A DNA stretch of 64,000 bases from Octadecabacter antarcticus 307 (GTDB taxonomy: Bacteria; Pseudomonadota; Alphaproteobacteria; Rhodobacterales; Rhodobacteraceae): positions 1,788,501-1,852,500 of the forward strand of contig NC_020911.1 of NCBI RefSeq assembly GCF_000155675.2. The letters are read 5' to 3'. Positions 5,082 to 43,689 of this stretch are shown here, piece by piece; position 1 is the first letter of the stretch; every line of letters begins with the position of its first letter. Under the pieces are notes generated by a model. It was not told the origin of the DNA, searched no databases, and worked only from the letters and a program-made list of their open reading frames with translations. A program made the translations under genes and the position numbers.

Positions 5082-5127
5082 TTGGCTCCGGCGGTAGGGA
5101 TCGAACCTACGACAAATTGATTAACAG
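5082..5127 (-). repeat. tRNA-Asn 3' part, left attachment scar
   Basis: Read on the minus strand this is the 3' portion of tRNA-Asn: anticodon loop CTGTTAA (GTT anticodon), TCAAT stem strand, variable loop, T arm GTAGG-TTCGATC-CCTAC, acceptor CGCCGGA, discriminator G and CCA. The 5' half is absent. The same 46 bases occur at 39326-39371 in the same orientation. Tyrosine recombinases commonly use tRNA 3' ends, so the pair is read as attL and attR of the island between them. Confidence 0.88.
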
Positions 5128-5243: not shown

Positions 5244-5316
5244 AGGTGACAAGCAATACAGTTTCAAGTAGTGACAAATCAAGTGACAAATTTAGTAGCA
5301 TATCCAGTGATAAGGG
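5244..5316 (+). promoter_or_regulatory. GTGACAA repeats, possible integrase arm sites
   Basis: Copies of a GTGACAA-type word lie at 5244-5253, 5270-5279 and 5282-5291 (the last two identical AGTGACAAAT) and a variant CAGTGATAAG at 5307-5316. They sit between the attachment scar and the integrase start. A pair of the same words lies inside the other island end at 39241-39261. Repeated arm-type sites inside both att ends are typical for lambda-like integrases. The stretch could alternatively be read as a low-complexity N-terminal extension of the integrase, so the role is inferred. Confidence 0.45.
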
Positions 5317-5323
5317 CTCAGAG

Positions 5324-6625
5324 ATGGCAAAGCTTACCAGCGGGCGAGGCGGCACAATTGAAAAGGCGGAGGCGCCTGAGAAAGGGCAGCGTTTTGTTTT
5401 TGATGATCACAGGGATGCACCGCGAGGTTTCGGGCTGCGGATAACCTCAGCGGGGGGGAAAGCCTTTGTGCTGGCCTATGCGGTTGAGGGTAAGCAACGG
5501 CGGGCGACTATTGGGAGTTGGCCTACTTGGACCCTTGAAGCTGCAAGGGCAGAGGCCAGCCAGATGCGCCGCAATATCGACGCCGGTAGTGACCCTCTAG
5601 AAGAAAAAAGGACGCGCAAGATTGAGCCGACGGTCGCAGACCTTGCATCAGATTGGCTCGACGTTCACGCAACTGGCCTGAAGAGTGAGCAAGCCATTCG
5701 TTCGCTGATCGGTGGCGATCTTGTCAAAGCCCTTGGAAAAATGAAAGTTACCGACGTGCGCAGGCGTGATGTGATTGAGGCGGTAGAAGCTAAAGCTGCG
5801 ACCGCACCGCGTCAGGCCGCTCTTATGCTGTCTTACGCGCGTATGCTGCTAGACTATGCAACAGACCGTGACATCGTCCGAGCTAACCCTGTTGCTGGAT
5901 TAAAGCCGGGTTCAATTAAGGTGGCAGGCAAGCGTGATCCGCTTAAGCCCGTCGTACGCTTACGGGTGTTGGATGCTGAGGAAATTAAAAGCATGTGGGC
6001 GAACGTTGAATCCTGCGGATTACATTTGCTGACGGGCCTCGCGCTCAAATTAGTTTTGGTAACAGGCCAGCGGCCGGGTGAGGTTGCGGGGATGCACGAG
6101 AAAGAAATAAGTGGCCGGTTGTGGACTATTCCCGCAAGTCGCAGGGGCAAAACAAGCACCGCACAGACAGTATATCTGACAGACACTGCCTTGGATATCA
6201 TCGCCGTTGCAAAGGCTGAACTTCAACGCTTGCAGGGCCGCAGAAAGGGCGCGCCGAGTGGCTATATATTCGAGTCCAGTTATGGCTTACCAATCACCAA
6301 TGCGGCCCTTCCTAGGGGCGTCCAACGCTCTCATGAGGCACTGGGAGCAAAGGATGATGAAGCGTGGGGGCGATGGACGCCGCACGATTTGCGTCGCACC
6401 ATGCGGACAGGACTTTCAGCATCTAAGGTTGCCCCGCACATTGCCGAATTGACCATCGGCCATACCAAGCGTGGAATTGTTGCGACATACGATCAGCACA
6501 CTTTTGATAGTGAGCGCCGCGATGCGATGATGGCGTGGGAAGCGCGATTGCTGGCAATCGTCGCGGGGCGTGACCCTGACGTGAAAGTTCCTAACGTCTT
6601 TAAGCTGGAAAGGGCCGGGGTGTGA
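5324..6625 (+). CDS. tyrosine recombinase (P4-type island integrase)
   Basis: Integrase of 433 residues from the ATG at 5324 (MAKLTSGRGG); a GTG at 5246 would add 26 residues of Ser-Asp-Lys repeats and is less likely. The N-terminal part (GFGLRITSAGGKAFVLAYAVEGKQRRATIGSW) is the arm-binding domain of the P4 integrase group. Catalytic residues are visible: Arg in TGQRPGEVAG, His-x-x-Arg in PHDLRRT, His in IGHTKRG and the nucleophile Tyr in ATYDQHTF. It would excise and insert the island at tRNA-Asn. The next gene overlaps its stop by 4 bases. Confidence 0.93.
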   Translation: MAKLTSGRGGTIEKAEAPEKGQRFVFDDHRDAPRGFGLRITSAGGKAFVLAYAVEGKQRRATIGSWPTWTLEAARAEASQMRRNIDAGSDPLEEKRTRKIEPTVADLASDWLDVHATGLKSEQAIRSLIGGDLVKALGKMKVTDVRRRDVIEAVEAKAATAPRQAALMLSYARMLLDYATDRDIVRANPVAGLKPGSIKVAGKRDPLKPVVRLRVLDAEEIKSMWANVESCGLHLLTGLALKLVLVTGQRPGEVAGMHEKEISGRLWTIPASRRGKTSTAQTVYLTDTALDIIAVAKAELQRLQGRRKGAPSGYIFESSYGLPITNAALPRGVQRSHEALGAKDDEAWGRWTPHDLRRTMRTGLSASKVAPHIAELTIGHTKRGIVATYDQHTFDSERRDAMMAWEARLLAIVAGRDPDVKVPNVFKLERAGV

Positions 6626-24471: not shown

Positions 24472-24937
24472 CGTCGAAGTAGCATAGCCGTCATTCATAG
24501 ATTTTGCAGCATCGGTGAGTCGGGCTCGAAGCCGCCTAATGCTAGTGCAGCACCGTGATCTGTTGAGTGCCCCTTGAACCCGCCGTTCGTCAAAATTGGA
24601 AATCTGTTGCTTTCCAGCCTGTTGTCGGCTTTCGCTGGCATTGGCGTTTTGGGTGCAGTCGTTGCAATTTGTAGGCGTAACGTCGGCAAGGAGCCCAATC
24701 TGACCAATGCTGCGCGTTGCACGAGTGTCCGCTATCATGAGAGCGACCAAAAGCCTTCAACAACTACTTGGGTTTTGAACGGGTTTTTTGGCGGCGTCAA
24801 ACGGGACGGTTTGAGCATGTGCCAAAAAGGAGCGTTTTTAGCATACTTCTGGATGGTGATTAGCTTTGGTACGTCTTGTTACGCAAACGGGCCGCCCGAA
24901 TAGGCGACCCGCAGCAGGGAGAATGTAAATCTAAGAT
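24472..24937. other. intergenic gap with repeat fragments
   Basis: Contains fragments of the dispersed repeat family (TGCAGCATCGGTGAGTCGGG at 24505; GGCAAGGAGCCCA near 24688). A 109-codon frame at 24574-24903 has one hydrophobic segment but no ribosome site and overlaps the repeats and the duplicated block, so it is not called. Confidence 0.5.
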
Positions 24938-25370
24938 TTAGTTGAAATCGACTTCCTGTGTATCGACCACTTGGCCGTTCACTTTGAGAAACACGATTGC
25001 GTCTGTTTCTTGACGGGGGATGTTGACGTCAACATCAAGGTTTGCACCAGCTTTGACCATTTCTGACCCGATCAATGCACCGACTACGCCTTTGTGGAAG
25101 CTGTAAACTTCTACAACACCATCACCAGTTGCTGTGACTGTTCCAAGTTCAACTTGGCCGCCACGGTCCTGCTCCATCACGAAGTTGGAAATGTTGTCGA
25201 TGCTTGCAGATGCGATGGAAGCGGAAGCTGCGATTGCGGCGAATGCGAGAGTGGCTGTCTTAAACATGGTATGTTCCTTTTCTGCCCGTTTGGGCTGGTA
25301 GGTTGTGCCCCTATTCGTCTGGGGCGTTTGAATGTCTGCAGCGGGTTGCTGCGTTTCGATGAGTTGCATT
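24885..25370. repeat. 486-bp tandem duplication, unit copy 1
   Basis: Nearly identical to 25678-26163 with a constant offset of 793 bases and no gaps seen. It covers a complete small secreted-protein gene, its upstream leader and a downstream hairpin (GGGCCGCC...GGCGACCC at 24889-24911) that may end transcription on the minus strand. Confidence 0.85.
24938..25267 (-). CDS. small secreted protein, duplicate A
   Basis: Protein of 109 residues from the ATG at 25267, which follows AAAGGAAC; the frame is open for another 48 codons upstream but without a better site. A signal peptide is clear (MFKTATLAFAAIAASASIASA). The mature domain of about 88 residues (VELGTVTATGDGVVEVYSFHKG..., VVGALIGSEMVKAGANLDVDVNI..., AIVFLKVNGQVVDTQEVDFN) is an all-beta pattern that resembles the DUF7282 type, tentatively. 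It is nearly identical to duplicate B downstream of the FAH-family gene. Probably periplasmic. Confidence 0.8.
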   Translation of the reverse strand: MFKTATLAFAAIAASASIASASIDNISNFVMEQDRGGQVELGTVTATGDGVVEVYSFHKGVVGALIGSEMVKAGANLDVDVNIPRQETDAIVFLKVNGQVVDTQEVDFN

Positions 25371-25677
25371 TGGGTCGAAAAACGTCGTTTGAAAGCCCCA
25401 CTTACGGTCACAAAAAAAATGATGGCCTGCGACGAATTTAAGTTCTTGAAAAAACATCAGGCTAATCAATTTGGTACTTCTGTGCGATTGTGAACATAAG
25501 TTTAATTCCGGTGGTGCAGTATGGCACAAACGAATATTCCCAAGCCTCACAGCCACAGTGTGAACACAAAAATGTGAGCCGGTAATATTCGAGTCCTAAA
25601 GCCAAAGGATGATAATTTTGTCAAAAAATCAGAGGGTTCTGTCACAAACCAGATGTGGCCGTTTTAGAAATTACACC

Positions 25678-26163
25678 AAACGGGCCGCCCGAATAGGCGA
25701 CCCGCAGCAGGGAGAATGTAAATCTAAGATTTAGTTGAAATCGATTTCCTGTGTGTCGACCACTTGGCCGTTCACTTTGAGAAGCACGATTGCGTCTGTT
25801 TCTTGACGGGGGATGTTGACGTCAACATCGAGGTTTGCACCCGCTTTGACCATTTCTGACCCGACCAATGCACCCACTACGCCTTTGTGGAAGCTGTAAA
25901 CTTCTACAACGCCATCGCCAGTTGCTGTGACTGTTCCAAGTTCAACTTGGCCGCCACGGTCCTGCTTCATCACGAAGTTGGAGATGTTGTCGATGCTTGC
26001 AGATGCGATGGAAGCGGAAGCTGCGATTGTGGCGAAGGCGAGAGTTACTGTCTTAAACATGGTATATTCCTTTTCTGCCCGCTTGGGCTGGTAGGTTGTG
26101 CCCCTGTTCGTCTGAGGCGTTTGTGTGTCTGCAGCGGGTTGCTGCGTTTCGATGAGTTGCATT
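25678..26163. repeat. 486-bp tandem duplication, unit copy 2
   Basis: Second copy of the block at 24885-25370. It ends 6 bases before the stop codon of the FAH-family gene, so the duplication boundary falls right at an operon junction. The unique spacer 25371-25677 between the copies has no supported gene and probably holds the promoter of duplicate A. Confidence 0.85.
25731..26060 (-). CDS. small secreted protein, duplicate B
   Basis: Sister of the protein at 24938-25267, also 109 residues with signal peptide MFKTVTLAFATIAASASIASA. It differs by only a few residues (for example MKQDRGG for MEQDRGG, GALVG for GALIG, IVLLK for IVFLK), mostly conservative, so both copies look to be under selection. 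It lies about 110 bases after the FAH-family gene on the same strand and could be the end of the MipA operon. Confidence 0.8.
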   Translation of the reverse strand: MFKTVTLAFATIAASASIASASIDNISNFVMKQDRGGQVELGTVTATGDGVVEVYSFHKGVVGALVGSEMVKAGANLDVDVNIPRQETDAIVLLKVNGQVVDTQEIDFN

Positions 26164-30383: not shown

Positions 30384-31844
30384 ATGTCGAAGCACATTTT
30401 AATTTTTTCAGATGGTACCGGACAAGTCGGCGGGATTCGCCCTGATCAAAGACTATCCAATGTCTACAAGATGTATCGGGCGATGCGCCCAGGTCCAGAC
30501 TCGCCAATCCGTGTTGACGATCAGGTGGCATTCTACGACGCTGGCCTAGGCGCAGGCGAAACAGGTGGCCTCACTTTCAAGCGTATGCGAAACTTTTTCG
30601 CAGCTACGGTCGGCAATGGAATAGATGAGAATATTGTCGATTGTTACGAAGCCATTATAGCGGCCTACGAACCTGGCGATCAAATCTCACTGATAGGCTT
30701 TAGCCGCGGAGCTTACACAGTACGTTGTGTGACCAATGTGCTAAATCACTGCGGAATTCCAACGCGAATGCCTGGCAACACCCCTGTTCCAAAACATGGC
30801 CCCAAACTTCGCAAAATTGCCTCTGATGCAGTTCGCTATGTTTATAATCATGGGGCAGGTAAAAACCGCAAGGACTATGATGGTGAGCGACTTAGGAAGG
30901 CAAAACACTTCCGTGACAAATATTCCTGCAACGACAAGGACGGTAAAGATCAAGGCAACGTACAGCCAAACTTTGTGGGGGTCTTTGATACTGTAGCGGC
31001 TCTGGGTTCGCGTAAAATGCAATGGATCGTTTTTGCAGGTTTGGCATTGGCCTTAGGGACTACATTTTGGGCGATTTTTTATGACTGGTCGCTTTGGTGG
31101 CAGCTTCCGTTGGTTATGTTAACTCTGGTAATTCTTCACTGGTTCCGAGAGGCTGTCACTTCTCAATTCAAGTACATCAAAAAAGCCGGCACCACAAAAC
31201 CGCGCTGGTGGAAACCGACTTCATGGGCGTCGATTGAGAATTGGCATTTCGCGTCTTGGAATCTCAAATATTACGACACGTATCTTGATCCTGACGTGCG
31301 TTTTGCACGACACGCCATTTCCATAGATGAGGCCCGAAAGAGTTTTCCGCGTGTTGGCTGGGGTAAACGAAAAGACTATACCGCTAATTCTGCTTTGGAT
31401 CCGGCCTGGATGAAGCAAGTCTGGTTTGCAGGTAATCACTCAGATATTGGCGGCTCATATCCTGAAAGTGAATCTCGCTTGTCAGACATTGCATTGAAAT
31501 GGATGGTCGATGAAATGCACGAGTGCCTTAAGGATTTAAAAGATCTTACTGATATACAAATCAGAGACGATCTGCTGGTCACATCGCCAGATCCGTTGGG
31601 TTTACAGCATGACGAAATTGTAAGAACGCGTGATATTTGGCCAAGCTTTGTACCAGACTTTTTACGTGAGCATATGACTTGGTCTACGAAGCAGCGTGAA
31701 AAAAAGGGCGCTGCTCTGCACCCGACGGTAGTAGAGCGCTTGAAAGCAGATAGCGTGAGGCAGATGGGTGACGTGGCACCCTATCGTCCGACGACGCTTG
31801 TTGATCATCCTGATTGCGCGGAGTTCTATAAAGACAAAAGCTAA
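30384..31844 (+). CDS. DUF2235 (Tle1-like) alpha/beta hydrolase with membrane segment
   Basis: Protein of 486 residues from the ATG at 30384, with GAGGA 6 bases upstream; the frame is open 52 codons further without support. It begins HILIFSDGTG, the DUF2235 start. The nucleophile is Ser107 in GFSRGAY, the acid is Asp in GVFDTVAALG near residue 202 and the His is in GNHSDIGGSYP near residue 350. Between them two hydrophobic segments occur (WIVFAGLALALGTTFWAIFY and WWQLPLVMLTLVILHWF), so the hydrolase is membrane attached. Some relatives are type VI phospholipase effectors (Tle1), but no VgrG, PAAR or immunity gene is here. It lies 1.7 kb upstream of CBASS. Confidence 0.85.
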   Translation: MSKHILIFSDGTGQVGGIRPDQRLSNVYKMYRAMRPGPDSPIRVDDQVAFYDAGLGAGETGGLTFKRMRNFFAATVGNGIDENIVDCYEAIIAAYEPGDQISLIGFSRGAYTVRCVTNVLNHCGIPTRMPGNTPVPKHGPKLRKIASDAVRYVYNHGAGKNRKDYDGERLRKAKHFRDKYSCNDKDGKDQGNVQPNFVGVFDTVAALGSRKMQWIVFAGLALALGTTFWAIFYDWSLWWQLPLVMLTLVILHWFREAVTSQFKYIKKAGTTKPRWWKPTSWASIENWHFASWNLKYYDTYLDPDVRFARHAISIDEARKSFPRVGWGKRKDYTANSALDPAWMKQVWFAGNHSDIGGSYPESESRLSDIALKWMVDEMHECLKDLKDLTDIQIRDDLLVTSPDPLGLQHDEIVRTRDIWPSFVPDFLREHMTWSTKQREKKGAALHPTVVERLKADSVRQMGDVAPYRPTTLVDHPDCAEFYKDKS

Positions 31845-32412: not shown

Positions 32413-32499
32413 CCGAACTCGCAGTCTCCGGACGTTGCAGACATCGCTAAGGCAATGGCATATACTTTCTGAGTGGTATTTGAGAATTGAGACTTGTTT

Positions 32500-33219
32500 A
32501 TGTTGGAAGTTATAAAAAATATCGACCCAACCGTCCTTGTCGCGCTTGTCGGTGTTCTATCTATTGTTGTCAGTGCCGGAATTGGGGCTTTTGTATCCAG
32601 ATGGCATACGCAGTCAAAGTTCCAAGACGAACTTCATAAGCTGAGGTTGGAACGACGAAATGAGCAAAGTGACTCCTATCTAGAGAACGCGCGAAAACAG
32701 ATTGGTACTGTTTATGTTCCTTTGAGCGCCGAGTTGGCGGCCTTAAAGGCGGTTTTTCAGAACTATTTGTATCAGGATAAGACTGCCGAAATGCTCACGG
32801 AATTTGAGGTCCAAGTTGAGCAGTTCATTGCTAGATTACAAGAGCTCGAATTGAGAGGCGCTACAGCCTATGTCACGACCGAATTGGAAGACGTGCTAAT
32901 CAAGTTTGTCGTCTTCTTACGTGCGTCGAAAAGCGCATCTGAGACGGTGGTTGATGTCACCTACGACTTCAGCGCTGAGGTTCTGGGTTTTGGCTTTAGC
33001 AGGGCGGGCTCTCAAAAGACAAAGGTCTCCAGCGCGACTTCAAAGGGCTTCTCTGCATCGATTTCAGCAGCAGGCATTAGTGCTGATGTGCGAATTTCGG
33101 ACATCATTTCAGCACCAATCAACTCAGAAGACTTCCAAGCTCGTTTCGAGAGAGATTCGCATCGGCTGAGTTTGTTGATAAAAGAAGTGACGCTTGGCAG
33201 TGCAGCTCGGGTTCGCTGA
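32500..33219 (+). CDS. membrane-anchored coiled-coil protein
   Basis: Protein of about 239 residues from the ATG at 32500. One N-terminal membrane segment (VLVALVGVLSIVVSAGIGAFV) is followed by a long charged helix (SRWHTQSKFQDELHKLRLERRNEQSDSYLENARKQI) and more helical sequence (AELAALKAVFQNYL...LTEFEVQVEQFIARLQELELRG). The C-terminal quarter is Ser-rich and beta-like (SKGFSASISAAGISADVRISDIISAP). No family is recognised. It lies 303 bases before the CBASS cyclase on the same strand with a repeat between, so it is probably not part of that operon. Confidence 0.7.
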   Translation: MLEVIKNIDPTVLVALVGVLSIVVSAGIGAFVSRWHTQSKFQDELHKLRLERRNEQSDSYLENARKQIGTVYVPLSAELAALKAVFQNYLYQDKTAEMLTEFEVQVEQFIARLQELELRGATAYVTTELEDVLIKFVVFLRASKSASETVVDVTYDFSAEVLGFGFSRAGSQKTKVSSATSKGFSASISAAGISADVRISDIISAPINSEDFQARFERDSHRLSLLIKEVTLGSAARVR

Positions 33220-33522
33220 CTTCTCTTGAAGTGGTCATCCGTCAAAGTGGGCTCTCACCTGCCATTCTCCGCCGCGCAGCATCGCCGGGCCAAACGTCGA
33301 TTGGAGCGGCCCAAACCGGACCTTGACAGGAAGAACGGGATGCTGCGGCGCAGCCCACCATTCCGGACTTTCGCTGAGAAAATTTTACAAGACGAAATAC
33401 GAGATACTGAAACGGAAGAAGTTCCTCCCTGAACTCTGTATCGATAAAGCGAGTTACCGGTTGAATACCTGCTATCAAATACACACTTAAAAGTTGAGGG
33501 TAATTCGAGGTGAGATTTTTTT
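33220..33522. other. gap before CBASS operon
   Basis: Has a motif 2 repeat at 33339-33376. The CBASS promoter should lie between about 33400 and 33500; no palindrome or clear sigma-70 boxes stand out. GAGGTGAGA at 33508 is the ribosome site of the cyclase. Confidence 0.5.
33339..33376 (+). repeat. dispersed intergenic repeat, motif 2 copy
   Basis: Starts GATGCTGCGGCGCAGCCCAC and ends CGGACTTTCGCTG, one of the best preserved copies. Confidence 0.75.
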
Positions 33523-34764
33523 ATGACTGATATGAATGTTGGCATCGGATATGGTTACAACTTAGCGGTAGAAAAATTAGCGGAAGAGTTGGCAGTACCA
33601 CCGGATCGCTTCGATCAGGCTGAACGGCGATACAAGGATCTCGGCGAATTTCTGCATCGTGACGAGTCAAAAGTCCGCGATTTTGACCCTGATGTTTACA
33701 TCCAAGGTTCCTTCGCGCTCGGAACACCTATCAAGCCGGCATCGACAGATGAAGATTACGATCTCGACATCGTGGTAGCTTTTAAGGCTCTCTCTAAAAG
33801 GCATATGTGCCAAGCCGACCTTCGTCGTCTGTTGAAAGATGAGCTGAAGGCCTATCGAAAAGCCCGAGGTATTCAGAATGCAGTTGGCGAGTCTAGAAGG
33901 TGTTGTACCTTGATCTACGCGGATGGTGCGCAATTCCATATGGACGTTTTACCTGCCGTTCCGAATGAGGCAAACATGCGTGCGGTGCTCTCATCGTACC
34001 GTGCGGATGAAGCCCTTGCAGACGGTGCGATCGCGATCACCGATAGCGAGGAGATTGCCACATATCACGTCATCACCGACGACTGGCCAGGCAGCAACCC
34101 TCGGGGCTTCGCCGCATGGTTCAAGTCAAGGCAGCTTGAGCAGTTGAACGAACGTCGTAGGGCGTTCCTAGATGCACGGGGTAAAGTGACGGCCAGCGTT
34201 GAGGATGTCCCTGTGTTCCGGGTCCGAACACCCCTACAGTCTGCCATTATGATTTTGAAAAGGCACCGCGACGAGTGGTTCGCAGAACAAGACGATCCAG
34301 ATCTAAAGGTGATCAGCATCATCCTGACAACTTTGTCGACCCACGCATACGCAGGCGAAGCTCGCGTGTCTGATGCAATTGCAAAGATACTAAGAGATCT
34401 GCACGTCAAGATTGAGGAGCTGCACGGCGTCTACTGGATAGCCAATCCGACGGACCCCTCCGAAAACTTTGCCGATCGCTGGGAGACCCACCCAGAACGA
34501 GGAGAGGCATTCTTCGAGTGGCTTGAGGCTGCCCGCAGACACTTCGGAGCAGTTCAAGGGTTCAGTGACGCAAGCATCGTCTTAAATGAACTTTCACAGA
34601 GTCTTGGCGATCCTATTGTCGAGGCGGCCCGATTACGCGTCTCGACAAACACAGGATCACGTGCAGCATCTGTCGCACCCGCGGCCGCGGCAGGTGCATC
34701 ATCGCCTGGCCTCGTGTTTGGTGATGAGCAACGGAGACCTACGGAGCCAAAGGGTTTCGGTTGA
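33523..34764 (+). CDS. CBASS cyclic-oligonucleotide synthase (CD-NTase)
   Basis: cGAS/DncV-like nucleotidyltransferase of 413 residues that makes a cyclic nucleotide signal when phage is sensed. Active-site residues are Gly62-Ser63 in QGSFALGT, Asp80 and Asp82 in DYDLDIVV and the third acid Asp141 in FHMDVLP. The last 45 residues are a flexible Ala/Pro-rich tail (RAASVAPAAAAGASS...) ending PTEPKGFG. In type II CBASS, Cap2 joins the C-terminal residue of the cyclase to targets; a free terminal Gly fits that. The ATG at 33523 follows GAGGTGAGA. The stop overlaps the Cap2 start (TGATG). The clade (CdnD, CdnG or other) is not assigned. Confidence 0.92.
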   Translation: MTDMNVGIGYGYNLAVEKLAEELAVPPDRFDQAERRYKDLGEFLHRDESKVRDFDPDVYIQGSFALGTPIKPASTDEDYDLDIVVAFKALSKRHMCQADLRRLLKDELKAYRKARGIQNAVGESRRCCTLIYADGAQFHMDVLPAVPNEANMRAVLSSYRADEALADGAIAITDSEEIATYHVITDDWPGSNPRGFAAWFKSRQLEQLNERRRAFLDARGKVTASVEDVPVFRVRTPLQSAIMILKRHRDEWFAEQDDPDLKVISIILTTLSTHAYAGEARVSDAIAKILRDLHVKIEELHGVYWIANPTDPSENFADRWETHPERGEAFFEWLEAARRHFGAVQGFSDASIVLNELSQSLGDPIVEAARLRVSTNTGSRAASVAPAAAAGASSPGLVFGDEQRRPTEPKGFG

Positions 34765-36482
34765 TGGCCGACACGCCCAAAGAAGGGCGGTTGATACAAG
34801 AGTGCGGTGAACTAACCGAGCTGGCTTCGAGCTCGGTTTGGATTCAGGATGCTTATTTCAGTCGGAACAGTAGTGGCCTTCTGACTTGGTCTTTTATGTT
34901 GGTGAGCGAGGACAGGCGCATACCTCTACACCTGATTTTTCCGGCCCTCTTCCCGGACTTACCACCCTTCGTGCTTCCGGCAGATGACACCGCTCGGCTT
35001 TCCCAGCACCAGTATGGTGAGGGTGGTGAGCTTTGCCTCCAGTATAGGCCTGACAACTGGCATCCGGATTGCAAGAGTACGGATGTGGTTCAAAGTGCCA
35101 AGGCGCTTCTGGATGCAACGCCTGCAGATGATTTTCTATCTGAAGTAAAAAGTGACCATCCGTCGGACCTGCCCTCAATGCTTGCGCGATATCCACGTCG
35201 GTTCATGTTGACTCCCGAAACCGCCAGTCTTTTGAGGAGACGCTTGGCTGGGCATGTCACTGAGCTCCGTCTGACTCTTGAGCACCGGATTGGATCAACC
35301 GAAGCTCAAGTCGCTCGCGTTGCGTCCATTGGCTACGATGCCGGGCTAACAGTCCCATCGGATGGTCCTGGATTCGGTGGCAAAGTGGTCCAAGGTGTGT
35401 TGTATCGCCTACGCAGCATTCAAACGCTTCCAGATCTTACCACAGAGGACGTAAGAGAACAGTTGTATATGTTCTTGCCACGCTGGTTAAGAGGCATGAT
35501 TGCTAAGACCGAAGACATGCTGGTCGTCCTGTCGAACGGCCAACAAGAGGTATTGTTTCGTGTTCAGCATCAGGCCACAGAAAGGAATATGGACCTTTTC
35601 CATACTTTCGAACCGCCACACGCGAAAGAACGCAGGGTCCACGGTCAGATGTTTCAAAAATCCAGCGTCTGCATTATCGGCGCTGGTTCTCTTGGTTCGA
35701 AGGTCGCTGCAAGCCTAACACGCGAGGGAGTTGGTCACTTCATGTTGCTCGACAATGATGTCCTATGGTCCGACAACTTAGTACGCAACGAACTCGACGA
35801 GATGGATGTCGGACATCACAAGGCGACTTCGCTCAAGCACAGGCTACTTCGAATTAAGCCTGGTTTACGAGTATCCGCCCTAAGCATCAGCCTGACTTCA
35901 CAATCGACAGTCCAGAGCATTGCAAAGCTTGGTGAGATCATTAGCTCCTGTGATCTTGTGATCGATACCACAGCCGACAGCGGGGTGTTTCGCATGGCTG
36001 CAGCCATCTGCACACAAAAGAAGAGGCCTATTGTCTGGGCACGCGTTTACGCCGGTGGAATTGGCGGGCTTGTGGCGCGAAGTGTTCCATATGAAGATCC
36101 ACCTCCGATGGTAGCTGCCTTGCAGCTGCAAGCGTGGTGCGACGCCAAGGGCAAAATGCCCCCAGAGGGTCATGAGCGAGATTACGGGGTGCAAGGTGAT
36201 GGTCAAGACGAACCTCTGTTCGCCTCCGACGGTGACGTGGGAGCAATTTCTAACCGGCTGGCTCGCCATGCCTTAGACGTGCTTTCACCCTCTGAGATGA
36301 GAGTACACCCGGAGCCCGCATATTACATCGGACTGCGGAAAGGCTGGATCTTTGACCACCCGTTTGACACTCACCCTGTTGTCTACAGCTTACATGGCGG
36401 ATGGGGCGATAGAGGTACCGAGGAAGGAGGCCTCAATGTCGAGAAGGTTCTAAATTCTCTTGGTGTCAAGCATGACTCTTAG
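34764..36482 (+). CDS. cap2: Cap2, E2-E1 fusion protein of type II CBASS
   Basis: Ubiquitin-machinery-like protein of 572 residues. The N-terminal E2-like domain has IPLHLIFPALFPDLPPFV and the probable catalytic Cys91 in GELCLQYRPDNWHPD. The C-terminal E1-like (ThiF) domain starts near residue 298 with CIIGAGSLGSKVAASL, then LLDNDVLWSDNLVRNE and CDLVIDTTADSG, the ATP site of adenylating enzymes. Cap2 activates the C-terminus of the cyclase and conjugates it, raising its activity. Starts at the ATG overlapping the cyclase stop and overlaps cap3 by 11 bases. The E1 catalytic Cys is not assigned with certainty. Confidence 0.92.
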   Translation: MADTPKEGRLIQECGELTELASSSVWIQDAYFSRNSSGLLTWSFMLVSEDRRIPLHLIFPALFPDLPPFVLPADDTARLSQHQYGEGGELCLQYRPDNWHPDCKSTDVVQSAKALLDATPADDFLSEVKSDHPSDLPSMLARYPRRFMLTPETASLLRRRLAGHVTELRLTLEHRIGSTEAQVARVASIGYDAGLTVPSDGPGFGGKVVQGVLYRLRSIQTLPDLTTEDVREQLYMFLPRWLRGMIAKTEDMLVVLSNGQQEVLFRVQHQATERNMDLFHTFEPPHAKERRVHGQMFQKSSVCIIGAGSLGSKVAASLTREGVGHFMLLDNDVLWSDNLVRNELDEMDVGHHKATSLKHRLLRIKPGLRVSALSISLTSQSTVQSIAKLGEIISSCDLVIDTTADSGVFRMAAAICTQKKRPIVWARVYAGGIGGLVARSVPYEDPPPMVAALQLQAWCDAKGKMPPEGHERDYGVQGDGQDEPLFASDGDVGAISNRLARHALDVLSPSEMRVHPEPAYYIGLRKGWIFDHPFDTHPVVYSLHGGWGDRGTEEGGLNVEKVLNSLGVKHDS

Positions 36483-36996
36483 TCTCAGGATTCCTCCGTC
36501 ACATTGGACAGCAATGCGGGCTTGCCTGCAAAGAGGTGGTATTCGAGAGATCGGCGGATGGTTGGCCGCAGAACAGCTCGCGCCGGGGGTTTTCGAGTTA
36601 ATCGGTTTCACGGTAGACTTCGAGGTCGGAACGCACAATCGCTTTGCCAGCCTGCCAGCTACGCATAGCGAACAGCTCGATAAAATTCTGAACGAGAACG
36701 CGGGCCGAAAAGGGCGCATCGATTATCTAGGTGAGTGGCATTCTCATCCAACATTCCCACCGGTCCCGAGCGACATTGACGTGGCTGCAATGACGAAGAT
36801 GGTCGAAGACAGCGGGCCGTCTTTCGCCACATTGCTCATTGTTCGGATGTTGGGTGCGGCAGTGCTCGAAGCGACGATTACGACTTTCCAACGTGATATG
36901 CCATCTGAACATAGTCAATTGATCATCGACCACGACCACCAGTCCGGATTTCTTCTTGGGATGGATTCAACAAACAAAAATGAGGGGCAGAATTGA
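36472..36996 (+). CDS. cap3: Cap3, JAMM/MPN protease of type II CBASS
   Basis: Deubiquitinase-like metalloprotease of 174 residues from the ATG at 36472 (a TTG 4 codons earlier is possible). The JAMM zinc motif is complete: Glu26 in REIGGW, then His90-x-His92 in EWHSHPTFPPVPSDID with Ser100 and Asp103. Cap3 removes the cyclase from its conjugates and so limits the signal. The gene overlaps cap2 by 11 bases and its stop overlaps the effector start (TGATG). Length is as usual for the family. Confidence 0.92.
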   Translation: MTLSLRIPPSHWTAMRACLQRGGIREIGGWLAAEQLAPGVFELIGFTVDFEVGTHNRFASLPATHSEQLDKILNENAGRKGRIDYLGEWHSHPTFPPVPSDIDVAAMTKMVEDSGPSFATLLIVRMLGAAVLEATITTFQRDMPSEHSQLIIDHDHQSGFLLGMDSTNKNEGQN

Positions 36997-38138
36997 TGTC
37001 GAATAGAGGGAAGCAACCGCGCGAAATCACAAAGCTTCTGGTTTGGGCTCGCGCAGCCGGGCGGTGCCAATTCAAGAATTGCCAAAAGGCTCTCGATCAC
37101 GATCTGATTGCCGGAAAAGCAGAAGTCAATGCTGCATATCTGGCCCACATCGTCGCCTCATCGCCCAACGGTAAGAGGGGACACCCAAAACGGTCTCACG
37201 TGCTGTCTGATGACGCATCAAACATTATGCTGATGTGTGATGTCCATCATCGGATTATCGACGGCGAGGAAACTTGGGAGGATTATCGAGAAGAGCTCTT
37301 GTTGCAATGGAAGAAAGAGCATGAGGAGTGGGTGGAACTGGCGCTGTCCTCCGGGCCCGACAGTCGTTCCCACATTCTGCAGTTTTCGGCACCGATTGGC
37401 CCAAACGAAACGGCCGTTCCCTTTGATGACTGTGTTGACGCTATCATGCCAGAAAGGACCCCAGCCGAACGGAGACCGACGGAGATCAAGGTAAGGGGGA
37501 TGTATTTTCAGGACAGCGAGGAAACTTACTGGAGCATACAGCCACAAACACTTCGAAATGGTGTTATACAGAACGTCCGGGGTCGGTTCGAGACAGGCGA
37601 CATTCGCCACCTTTCCATTTTCGGCCTTGCTCCTATACCGCTCCTGATGGAACTTGGTCGCCTTATCTCAGACATCTCGGATGTCGATATATACGAACGT
37701 CATCGTGAACCTTCTCAGTGGAGATGGCCCGAAGACGGGCCTGAGGTAAATTTCTTACGCTCCAAAGGTCGGAAAGGTCCAAAACACGTGGCTCTGAAGC
37801 TCTCGGTGACATCTCACATAACAGATGAGCGAATAACGGATGCGGTCGGCGATGACGTGTCGATATGGGAAATATCGAGCGATCCACAAACTCAGGGTGT
37901 TATCCGGCACAAAAGTGATCTCAGCCGATACAGATCAATCGTTCGAACGACTTTGGATGAGATCAAGAATACCCATGGAATGGACGTCAGGCTTTCCGTT
38001 TTTCCTGCTGTACCAGTATCCTGCGCAATCGAGTTTGGCAGGGTATGGCAGCCAAAAGTCCATCCGGTTGTCGAAATATTTGACCAGGTGAGAGACAGAG
38101 GTTTTGTTTCCCGCTTGTCGTTTGATGACAAGTCGTAG
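36996..38138 (+). CDS. HNH-SAVED effector nuclease (Cap5-type)
   Basis: CBASS effector of 380 residues from the ATG at 36996. The N-terminal HNH nuclease has Cys24 and Cys29 in GRCQFKNC, His51 in YLAHIVASS, Asn76 in SNIMLMC and Cys81/His84/His85 in CDVHHRIID. The C-terminal half (from about residue 150; IKVRGMYFQDSEETYWSIQP..., LSIFGLAPIPLLMELGRLISDISDVDIYERHREP, KLSVTSHI, AVPVSCAIEFGRVWQPKVHP) is a SAVED domain, which binds the cyclic nucleotide and drives assembly so that the nuclease cuts DNA. The SAVED start ALAPIP.L and the FAVPVS.A.E.GR block are typical. Last gene of the four-gene operon. Confidence 0.9.
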   Translation: MSNRGKQPREITKLLVWARAAGRCQFKNCQKALDHDLIAGKAEVNAAYLAHIVASSPNGKRGHPKRSHVLSDDASNIMLMCDVHHRIIDGEETWEDYREELLLQWKKEHEEWVELALSSGPDSRSHILQFSAPIGPNETAVPFDDCVDAIMPERTPAERRPTEIKVRGMYFQDSEETYWSIQPQTLRNGVIQNVRGRFETGDIRHLSIFGLAPIPLLMELGRLISDISDVDIYERHREPSQWRWPEDGPEVNFLRSKGRKGPKHVALKLSVTSHITDERITDAVGDDVSIWEISSDPQTQGVIRHKSDLSRYRSIVRTTLDEIKNTHGMDVRLSVFPAVPVSCAIEFGRVWQPKVHPVVEIFDQVRDRGFVSRLSFDDKS

Positions 38139-38159
38139 GCCCAAAGCCTTTCAGACAAT

Positions 38160-38588
38160 TTGCGATTGAAAAAGGCTCGGAAAACGGAATCTAATACAAT
38201 CAGGCGTGGTGACCTTTCGTGCGAAATTGCGATTAACCAATCAGAAGCATTAGTCTCAGGTACTGTGAAATACCGAGCCTATGAGGTTGGCACAGTATCT
38301 GGAGCGACAACCGAAGCGATCGCTGGCCAATTTCTGTCGATCTGCGAATTGGTTAATGACGGATCCATGGTCCGTGACGGCACCATAATGACCGGCTACC
38401 ACAATGAAATCTCTGGTGGCGATGTGCTTTTATTAGACGGCGAAATTGTTGGCCAATGGAGATCTGACGAAGAGGGATGGTGTCACTTCGTCGCCTACAG
38501 TGCGACTGAAATCACCTGTAGTGCGCCATCACCATGGCTTTTGCAGGACACTATTTTTGAATGGCTTTCCGATGGGAAAACAGATTAG
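38160..38588 (+). CDS. hypothetical protein after CBASS
   Basis: Frame of 142 codons that starts 21 bases after the effector stop on the same strand. Only TTG starts (38160 or 38166) are available near the beginning, with no clear ribosome site. The sequence looks real (SCEIAINQSEALVSGTVKYRAYEVGTVSGATTEAIAGQFLSICELV...), with beta-like N-terminal half and Trp-rich end (GQWRSDEEGWCHFVAY). No family is recognised. It may be a fifth operon gene or a fragment of a longer one. Confidence 0.5.
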   Translation: MRLKKARKTESNTIRRGDLSCEIAINQSEALVSGTVKYRAYEVGTVSGATTEAIAGQFLSICELVNDGSMVRDGTIMTGYHNEISGGDVLLLDGEIVGQWRSDEEGWCHFVAYSATEITCSAPSPWLLQDTIFEWLSDGKTD

Positions 38589-38983
38589 GGGGCTAACTTA
38601 GCACCGGTTTAATATGATGTTAGAACTTCCGATTCGACTCGAAGACCAGGACCACCTCGAACTCAGACAGCCTGAGTGCACAACGAACTTCCGCTTTGCC
38701 AAATGTAATTGCCGCACTTTGCATTCGCAGCAAAGGTCCGGTTTCCGCCCTCAGTGTAAAAGTGTGCATGGTGGAGCATCAATCACTCTTGGCTCATGGC
38801 TGATGTTCGCGGCATTGCGATCACCGGTCCGCTCGAGGTCTTATTAGAACACAGTGACATGTCTGTGTTCGTTTCGCTTCCGCCACAGTCACTTATGTCT
38901 CCCGCGTTCTTCCACGTATAAATCACCAACGCCGAAAGCCACCCTGAGGTGGCTGTTAGCGCATTGATATAATTAGATTATAT
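38589..38983. other. gap at the right end of the CBASS segment
   Basis: No gene supported. It has a degenerate motif 1 repeat at 38741-38781 (GGTTTCCGCCCTCAGTG...) and otherwise nothing clear. Confidence 0.5.
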
Positions 38984-39325: not shown

Positions 39326-39371
39326 TTGGCTCCGGCGGTAGGGATCGAACCTACGACAAATTGATTAACAG
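39326..39371 (-). repeat. tRNA-Asn 3' part, right attachment scar
   Basis: Identical over 46 bases to 5082-5127. To its right, where the tRNA 5' half should be, the sequence does not form the D arm and acceptor strand, so the gene is not intact here either. A later insertion or exchange has probably replaced it. Confidence 0.88.
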
Positions 39372-39544: not shown

Positions 39545-39672
39545 AAGTGTTCTGAGTTTCGTACAGTAGCACTGTGCACCTTACTGTTTCTTTTTGTTGA
39601 CTTTTATCTTGCATCAGGTTGCATGTAGTAGCGCAGAGTAGCGTGGCGTTACCTACAAAAGGCCGACAGAAT

Positions 39673-40752
39673 ATGCCAAAGCTTACAGAGACGTTTTCTA
39701 ACAAATTGCCACATGCGAAAGCAGGGACGGATAAGTACTGGGACGCTGAGATCAAAGGGCTGGTGCTCTTTGTGGGGAAGCGCTCGAAGACCTGGTACTT
39801 TCAGAAGGACGTTGGCGGCCAGACCAAGCGTATTCTGATTGGTCGGTTTCCAATCATCTCAGCGCAGGCCGCACGCCAAACGGCGCTTGGGTTTGCCTTG
39901 GAGATGGGCCGAGGGGCAGGGAAGGCGGCTCAGATTGGCGCGCCCACGTTGGAGGCCGCAATGGAAGTGTATCTGGCACGTCCAAAGCTGCGTTCTGAGA
40001 CTAACAAGATCGGGATGCGCGCCCAGCTTACGCTTCATCTGAAAGACTGGATGCGCCTGCCTCTCGGCGAGATCAGCAAGACGATGACAGTGCGCCGTCA
40101 TCACGATATGGCGGGATCGTCGTCGGCAGCTAATCATGTTCTTCGCAGCTTTCGCGCCATCTATAATCATGCCCGCCGGACTTGTGACTTACCAGAATGT
40201 CCAACGATGGCGATTGAATGGTTTGAAGATAAGCCGGACGGGCGGATTATTGAGGACCTGAAGCACTGGCGGCAGACGATTGATGATCTGCCCAACCCAA
40301 TCCATCGCGTATTCTACGAGCTGCTTTTGTTTACCGGCCTTCGCAAAACTGAAGTGTTCACCTTGAAGTGGGAGCAGATACAGGAAGACCACATTCATCT
40401 GCCAATGACGAAGAACGGGCGGAGTTTTGATCTTCCAATTTTGCAATTGCACCATGAGATCTTGGCACCACTTCGCCCTCTCAGCAGAGACTGGGTCTTT
40501 CCGTCACCAAAGTCAGAGTCCGGCCACATCACAAGGCCGGAACGGCTCAAGTATAATCCGCATATGCATCGCCGGACATTCGCGACGGTTGCAATGGAAG
40601 CAGGCGTTCTGGAAGAAATCGTTGGACGACTGCTCAATCATACGCCGCTGTCGATCACTGGGCAGAGATATACTCGTCCGTCGTTGGATGCATTGCGGCC
40701 TTCGATGGAGATTGCGTGCGCCGAAATATCTAAAAGGTTAGTAGTTGGATAA
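39673..40752 (+). CDS. tyrosine recombinase at tRNA-Gly
   Basis: Integrase of 359 residues from the ATG at 39673 (MPKLTETFSNKL); the frame is open 18 codons further upstream. The N-terminal arm-binding part is IKGLVLFVGKRSKTWYFQKDVGGQTKRILIGRFP. Catalytic residues: Arg in TGLRKTEV, His-x-x-Arg in MHRRTFATVA, His in LLNHTPLS and Tyr in GQRYTRPS. It probably acts at the neighbouring tRNA-Gly site. Its last 270 bases are repeated at 43423-43689. Confidence 0.92.
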   Translation: MPKLTETFSNKLPHAKAGTDKYWDAEIKGLVLFVGKRSKTWYFQKDVGGQTKRILIGRFPIISAQAARQTALGFALEMGRGAGKAAQIGAPTLEAAMEVYLARPKLRSETNKIGMRAQLTLHLKDWMRLPLGEISKTMTVRRHHDMAGSSSAANHVLRSFRAIYNHARRTCDLPECPTMAIEWFEDKPDGRIIEDLKHWRQTIDDLPNPIHRVFYELLLFTGLRKTEVFTLKWEQIQEDHIHLPMTKNGRSFDLPILQLHHEILAPLRPLSRDWVFPSPKSESGHITRPERLKYNPHMHRRTFATVAMEAGVLEEIVGRLLNHTPLSITGQRYTRPSLDALRPSMEIACAEISKRLVVG

Positions 40753-43282: not shown

Positions 43283-43422
43283 AACTTTTCTCCAAGCTTA
43301 GATAATCAATTGTAGATGCCACTTTACGTAGGGCAAACCTATAATTTGTCGGAGTTTTTTTTAGTTGACGGTTAATCGCAGAGTAAAAAGGGACCAGATC
43401 ACGGCGTAAAACTGGTCCCCTG

Positions 43423-43689
43423 AGCAGAGACTGGGTCTTTCCGTCACCAAAGTCAGAGTCCGGCCACATCACAAGGCCGGAACGGCTCAAGTATAATCCG
43501 CATATGCATCGCCGGACATTTGCGACAGTTGCGATGGAAGCAGGTGTGCTGGAAGAAATTGTAGGACGACTGCTCAGTCATACGCCGCTGTCGATCACGG
43601 GGCAGCGATATACGCGGCCGTCGTTGGATGCATTGCGTCCATCGATGGAGATTGCGTGCGCCGAAATTTTGGGTCGCATCGACAACTGA
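43423..43689 (+). pseudogene. 3' fragment of the tRNA-Gly integrase gene
   Basis: Matches 40483-40749 at a constant offset of 2940 bases with scattered silent changes (TTTGCGACAGTTGCG for TTCGCGACGGTTGCA). It encodes the last 85 or so residues including HRRTF and the catalytic GQRYTRPS, ending differently (EILGRIDN). It has no promoter or 5' part, so it is a relic. Together with the intact gene it brackets the PhyH/transporter cassette. Confidence 0.85.

Follow-up and report, generated by a model that had tools for sequence, protein, structure and literature searches.

Evidence for a complete type II CBASS operon of the CdnG-Cap5 kind in a mobile island of Octadecabacter antarcticus 307

Described systems and the locus in Octadecabacter

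Cyclic oligonucleotide-based antiphage signalling systems (CBASS) which pair a clade G cyclase (CdnG) with the HNH-SAVED nuclease Cap5 are known from Asticcacaulis sp. and Lactococcus lactis (PMC8568899) as well as Vibrio cholerae (PMC12804361). The same pairing occurs in the window, a stretch of 64,000 nucleotides (nt) of Octadecabacter antarcticus 307, in which four genes at 33523-38138 very probably make up a complete and intact CdnG-Cap5 CBASS of type II (long), predicted to signal by 3',2'-cyclic GMP-AMP (3',2'-cGAMP) to a DNA-cutting Cap5. Most of the substrate and ligand residues reported for the three systems are kept in the window, which differs from the characterised members by a lid2 Phe for Tyr in the cyclase and by a His at the position of Asp349 of the Asticcacaulis Cap5 (AsCap5). 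The operons of Asticcacaulis and Lactococcus belong to type II (short) and include one third gene of unknown function (PMC8568899), whereas full Cap2 and Cap3 genes are found in the window. The type II CBASS of Escherichia coli, V. cholerae, Pseudomonas aeruginosa, Enterobacter cloacae (PMC10097602) and Bacillus cereus (PMC11153139) likewise unite Cap2, Cap3, an effector and a cyclase ending in Gly/Ala in a single operon; they use CapV or Cap4 in the place of Cap5, and their Cap2 features a mutagenised E1 cysteine. In the window, the position aligned to Cys548 of an Enterobacter Cap2 is Gln481. The locus exemplifies a known system well and is not a new one. The cyclases of these Cap2/Cap3 systems presumably belong to other clades.

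Gene content, conserved residues and predicted signal

All four genes lie on the plus strand, start with ATG and are open to their end, with successive overlaps of 1, 11 and 1 nt, an arrangement which the initial annotation had described correctly as contiguous with overlaps of 1 to 11 bases. The cGAS/DncV-like nucleotidyltransferase (CD-NTase; 33523-34764, 413 amino acids (aa)) is matched by Pfam SMODS (1.1e-9) and DncV-like NTFase (4.2e-10), by PADLOC Cyclase (1.6e-122) and by the structure 9WOO of the V. cholerae enzyme (VcCdnG). It is followed by Cap2 (34764-36482, 572 aa), an E2-E1 fusion with matches to Pfam ThiF (4.9e-22) and PADLOC E1-E2 (1.9e-168), by Cap3 (36472-36996, 174 aa), a JAMM/JAB isopeptidase with matches to Pfam Prok-JAB (3.3e-13) and PADLOC JAB (1.5e-72), and by Cap5 (36996-38138, 380 aa), an HNH-SAVED nuclease matched by Pfam SAVED (6.4e-45), PADLOC Endonuclease effector (3.6e-146) and SAVED_HNH (1.3e-137) as well as the AsCap5 structure 7RWK. 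The family matches of the four genes are far beyond chance. No HNH or E2 domain was found by Pfam in the four proteins; the HNH assignment rests on PADLOC and the alignment to Cap5 structures, and the E2 assignment on PADLOC and on human E2s of the UBE2L3 type, to which Cap2 residues 35-135 show weak matches (best 6e-4). In NCBIfam, the SAVED domain scored above its cut-off, whereas the cyclase, Cap2 and Cap3 fell short of theirs. The earlier identification as a type II CBASS operon with an HNH-SAVED effector is upheld by Pfam, PADLOC, structure matches and residue maps alike, and the residues it had named (cyclase Asp80/Asp82, Cap2 Cys91, Cap3 His90/His92 and HNH His51) are all present.

The active site of the cyclase is intact (G62, S63, D80, D82 and D141 in the pattern GS...DxD...D). 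Its sole solved-structure matches are VcCdnG 9WOO (1.4e-70; 134 of 339 aligned positions identical), SmCdnG (4.1e-29) and 7LJN, a 'CD-NTase' (1.6e-12). Out of 17 active-site, pocket and lid residues of VcCdnG (PMC12804361), 14 are identical in the window, the exceptions being K118 (Ser124), K119 (Arg125) and the lid2 residue Tyr198 (Phe196); the pocket residues Lys246, Arg249, Ser265, Glu314 and Phe316 as well as lid1 Asn192 are kept. By its closest structures the enzyme appears clade-G-like, with the lid pair N192/F196 in the place of N/Y. Both the lid2 Phe and the C-terminal tail EPKGFG are shared by all 13 cyclases of an alignment that includes the window. Cyclases encoded together with full Cap2 and Cap3 show high conservation of a C-terminal Gly/Ala (PMC10097602), and the terminal Gly found here fits this rule for Cap2 substrates.

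The JAMM motif of Cap3 is present as His90-x-His92-x7-Ser100-x2-Asp103, with Glu26 as the probable catalytic glutamate; among solved structures, 9ILD (9e-4) alone matches Cap3 at E <= 0.1. For Cap5, the solved matches are led by AsCap5 7RWK (4.4e-85), followed by 8YSQ (6.1e-49), the Lactococcus Cap5 (LlCap5) 7RWM (1.8e-30) and 8FM1 (1.7e-28). His51, Asn76 and His85 of its HNH domain align with H46, N71 and H80 of AsCap5. The SAVED domain carries Arg237, Thr272 and Arg279 on the ligand side and Asp226, Arg317 and Lys354 on the back side, where Asp349 of AsCap5 is replaced by His356. Five AsCap5 residues were compared in all, and D220, R231, R310 and K347 are kept. In LlCap5, Arg234 contacts the adenine and the 2'-5' phosphate and Arg281 the guanine (PMC8568899); both are kept as R237 and R279, and Ser274 is replaced by Thr272. 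Of the SAVED ligand-binding residues, whose loss the initial annotation had named as a refuting observation, the two arginines are kept and some other contacts are substituted. Since the operon shares most of the key residues reported for VcCdnG, AsCap5 and LlCap5, 3',2'-cGAMP appears to be the best-supported signal, predicted to activate DNA degradation. Against the locus of Nereida sp. MMG025 (L002), the ratio of nonsynonymous to synonymous substitution rates (dN/dS) amounts to 0.049 for Cap5 and 0.251 for Cap3, i.e., strong purifying selection on Cap5 and purifying selection on Cap3.

For this operon, the sequence directly shows which genes are present and in what order, that they are intact, which residues are conserved, that Cap5 and Cap3 are under purifying selection and that att-like repeats bracket the operon, and published relatives support the view that it would provide phage defence by nucleotide signalling (PMC8568899, PMC12804361, PMC10097602). 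According to this model, Cap2 would use ATP to activate the cyclase at its C-terminal glycine and would link the cyclase via the E2 Cys91 to cell proteins, a linkage which would prime the cyclase and which Cap3 would undo. Upon phage infection, primed CdnG would join ATP and GTP into 3',2'-cGAMP, which the SAVED domain of Cap5 would bind through Arg237 and Arg279. Ligand binding would turn Cap5 dimers into tetramers, in keeping with the tetramer activation described for Cap5 (PMC12804361, PMC13253105), and the HNH domains would then cut DNA without sequence preference, by which the phage would be stopped and the cell lost.

Relatives, the E1 half of Cap2 and rival explanations

At E <= 0.001, the effector has one match in the source genome (its own copy) and occurs in 25 of 394 family-level genomes, the source included. 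A genome scan yielded 14 loci, 13 of them real (L015, a 25-residue match, was dropped), and 12 of the 13 extend beyond cap3. The Nereida locus L002 shares 81% identity with the window in the cyclase, 73% in Cap2 and 85% in the effector. Only two of the 12 loci (L002 and L003) carry the window-type effector; nine carry another HNH-SAVED protein with 40-41% identity to that of the window, and L005 has a 2TM-SAVED protein in the effector place. The match to cap3 is complete to the end in L002 and L003 and stops at residue 152-163 of 174 in L005 and the nine loci with the other HNH-SAVED. One cyclase-Cap2-Cap3 core thus occurs with three kinds of SAVED effector, and the switch falls near the 3' end of cap3. 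In L003, an operon of the Nereida type, the HNH-SAVED gene (L003:10212-10682) stops after about 155 codons, leaving the HNH part alone.

Some relatives form a tandem CBASS, in which cyclase, Cap2, Cap3 and HNH-SAVED are followed by a second, type-I-like CBASS. This consists of another cyclase, bearing AGS_C, and in complete cases also of a 2TM-SAVED gene. The second cyclase is present in five of the 12 genome loci (L004, L006, L008, L011, L012), its AGS_C domain being tested in L004 and aligned along its length in the others, and in four of nine opened plasmid records (H1, H6, H9, H12; loci L054, L062, L063, L065). A 2TM-SAVED gene follows in L004 (tested), L008 and L012 (aligned), and the copy in L006 is split into two frames; the contig of L011 ends, and the sequence of L002 does not extend far enough past Cap5 to show a tandem. 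No title or abstract on tandem or effector-swapped CBASS was found in the open-licence literature.

The E2 Cys91 and the E1 motif GAGSLG (306-311) of Cap2 are invariant in ten of ten aligned proteins, i.e., the window and nine relatives. The closest E1 structures are 7TSQ (1.6e-14) and 7TO3 (9.2e-14). Because the profile search that was to carry the E1 alignment to Cys548 of 7TO3 ended at position 421, the Cap2 of Enterobacter hormaechei (600 aa; outgroup L061) was aligned instead. Its Cys109 and Cys548, which we take to be the published E2 and E1 cysteines, align to Cys91 and Gln481 of the window, respectively. Cys459 is the sole Cys of the window Cap2 between 417 and 515. Among 26 distinct Cap2s of the subfamily, none has a Cys in the Cys548 column and 21 have Cys459, which is absent in L059, L060, L069, L070 and L071; L060 and L070 lack any Cys between 417 and 505. 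This set leaves out L061 (outgroup), L068 (interrupted by an insertion sequence element), L073 (a copy of the window itself) and L009, L062, L064, L066 and L072 (last 400 residues identical to another), and the motif filter used to choose it missed L013, L014 and L058. As sequences could pass the filter only with the E2 and adenylation motifs, for which the set is therefore no evidence, the count was repeated by unfiltered tblastn over all loci, counting duplicates as well as both copies of the window itself (L001, L073): Cys at 91 is found in 34 of 34 loci reaching this position and GxGSxG in 40 of 40, whereas position 459 is Cys in 33 of 39 (window included) and position 481 in 0 of 39. The earlier statement that all catalytic residues are visible consequently stands for the cyclase, E2, Cap3 and HNH, but not for the Cap2 E1 cysteine. 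The alignment around the Cys548 column is plausible (P-x-F and DV are common to the outgroup) and depends on one distant outgroup, from sequence alone. The E1 cysteine is thus not called lost; Cys459 is the only loop candidate and could be the thioester residue.

Several observations weigh against the interpretation as a complete 3',2'-cGAMP system. The lid2 Phe departs from the Tyr that predominates in clade G (PMC12804361), and Cap5 deviates from LlCap5 (Ile208 to Leu211, Phe304 to Gln300 and Thr344, a main-chain contact, to Val339) and from AsCap5 (Asp349 to His356), so that the exact signal could differ. An E1 thioester cysteine cannot be assigned at the Cys548 column, and the dN/dS values cover Cap5 and Cap3 only, dS of the cyclase and Cap2 against Nereida not being estimable. 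Besides, no sigma-70-like promoter was found in 33150-38750, where shuffles gave 4.1 expected, in a scan that covers this promoter type only. A type II CBASS as favoured, with another cyclic nucleotide as its signal, would accommodate the constancy of the lid2 Phe in all 13 cyclases, the D349H and F304Q changes and the association of one cyclase core with three SAVED effectors. This is considered improbable, as lid1 Asn192, Lys246, Arg249, Ser265, Glu314, Phe316 and the SAVED Arg237/Arg279 are all kept, and AsCap5 and LlCap5 respond to one ligand in spite of an identity of only 23% between their SAVED domains (PMC8568899).

A further explanation is a rival on one step and not on CBASS as a whole, namely that the E1 half of Cap2 only adenylates and that the cyclase adenylate passes straight to the E2 Cys91 with no obligatory E1 thioester. 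The missing Cys at the Enterobacter Cys548 position in the 39 loci and 26 distinct Cap2s, the two Cap2s devoid of a loop Cys and the full conservation of Cys91 would fit such a route, which is nevertheless judged unlikely: Cys459 may serve as the thioester residue, the loop alignment depends on a single distant outgroup, a Cys elsewhere is possible, and mutation of the E1 cysteine abolishes immunity in B. cereus (PMC11153139) and, in E. coli, immunity to T4, T6 and lambda, not to P1, T2 and T5 (PMC10097602). Finally, the operon could be a defunct remnant of an island, either decayed or silenced, given its position amid integrase genes, a fragment of an integrase and att-like repeats, the shortened Cap5 of the sister locus L003 and the missing sigma-70-type promoter match. 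Four open frames with their active sites kept and the strong selection on Cap5 against Nereida make this highly improbable, and a complete, intact CdnG-Cap5 CBASS is the explanation preferred here.

Mobile setting, neighbouring genes and implications

The position of the operon in a mobile island, as proposed at the outset, is borne out by direct repeats of a tRNA-Asn end and an integrase. Two 46-nt repeats of the same orientation (5082-5127 and 39326-39371) are identical to each other and to the native locus; they represent the end of the tRNA-Asn(GTT) gene of the genome and its border, the native gene being located in L038. The segment between them measures about 34 kb, and the CBASS operon lies close to its right end. 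A tyrosine integrase with Arm-DNA-bind_3 and Phage_integrase (5246-6625, plus strand) lies just inside the left, att-like repeat, and a second tyrosine integrase (39619-40752, plus strand) just outside the right one probably marks the start of a neighbouring element. Excision or transfer of the island may be inferred from this arrangement. A 21-nt motif of the tRNA-Asn 3' end has seven copies on G000:C2 with at most two mismatches (three allowed), one of them with an ARAGORN tRNA gene; the tRNA-Asn 3' end is a repeatedly used integration target. A direct repeat of 251 nt (94%; 40477-40727 and 43417-43667) corresponds to the 3' part of the second integrase, and by eye its copies look as if they flank an apparent ABC-transporter and dioxygenase cassette. 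Another direct repeat of 300 nt is 97% identical (24884-25183 and 25677-25976, 793 nt apart).

The initial annotation had attributed the spread of the operon to this island, an explanation that holds in part. The island itself is real, but plasmids are another route: the same Cap2 occurs at 60-80% identity on 12 plasmid records, nine of which were opened, and Cap2s of Roseobacteraceae plasmids, e.g., of Phaeobacter sp. G2 (L054), reach 69-70% identity to that of the window. In seven of the nine (H1, H2, H3, H5, H7, H8, H12), the operon stands between virB-type genes and a type IV coupling-protein gene, a fixed slot seen in the loci L053, L054, L063, L064, L066, L067 and L068. By the PLSDB typing of the nine plasmids, four are conjugative, three can be mobilized and two are non-mobilizable. 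A pattern-based search of viral_contigs gave no Cap2 relatives.

Downstream of Cap5, an open reading frame (ORF) of 142 aa (38160-38588, plus strand) starts with TTG 21 nt past the Cap5 stop in the same frame and may be co-transcribed with CBASS. It has no Pfam, PADLOC or NCBIfam match. Homologues occur in five of 393 other family genomes (three strong with 44-52% identity, two weak) and in eight plasmid records, and only the source genome among 385 genomes of a class sample contains the ORF; no relatives were found in phages or, by a pattern-based search, in viral_contigs. A fusion with or read-through from Cap5 was dropped as unnecessary, homologues of similar length (137-147 aa) standing alone. 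A role as CBASS component is unsupported: tblastn over 81 loci finds the ORF beside Cap2 solely in the window's own copies, L002 (ending 447 nt after Cap5) and L013 (ending inside cap2) being uninformative in this respect. In all three opened loci of the Rhodobacteraceae group, the strong homologues adjoin an OLD-like ATPase (L049), a SIR2-like gene (L076) or a cytosine methyltransferase (L077), and no constant partner was found in the six opened of seven Rhizobium plasmid records. The family is possibly a small accessory of defence genes. The Octadecabacter homologue also adjoins virB-type genes. Upstream of the operon, a DUF2235/Tle1-like hydrolase (30384-31844, plus strand; PF09994, 3.7e-64) has homologues of 51-52% identity next to CBASS in L004, L012, L054 and L063 and a weaker one near CBASS in L065 (30-48%); in the Rhizobium locus L079, a weak homologue lies close to a member of the 142-aa family. 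The ORF at 32494-33219 has no homologue in the other 393 of the 394 family genomes.

The operon adds an intact and well-conserved member with full Cap2 and Cap3 control to the CdnG-Cap5 systems. The features which raise interest beyond this, i.e., the E1 cysteine, the effector exchange and the tandem CBASS, belong mostly to the wider relatives, and the set of relatives is accordingly more useful than the single locus. The change of effectors among them offers natural effector-swap experiments on whether the signal stays constant. Moreover, the lack of a Cys at the usual E1 position allows a simple and direct test of the need for an E1 thioester in a ubiquitin-like cascade; if the thioester-free route were true, this would be a shortened cascade, unlike that of the published Cap2 enzymes.

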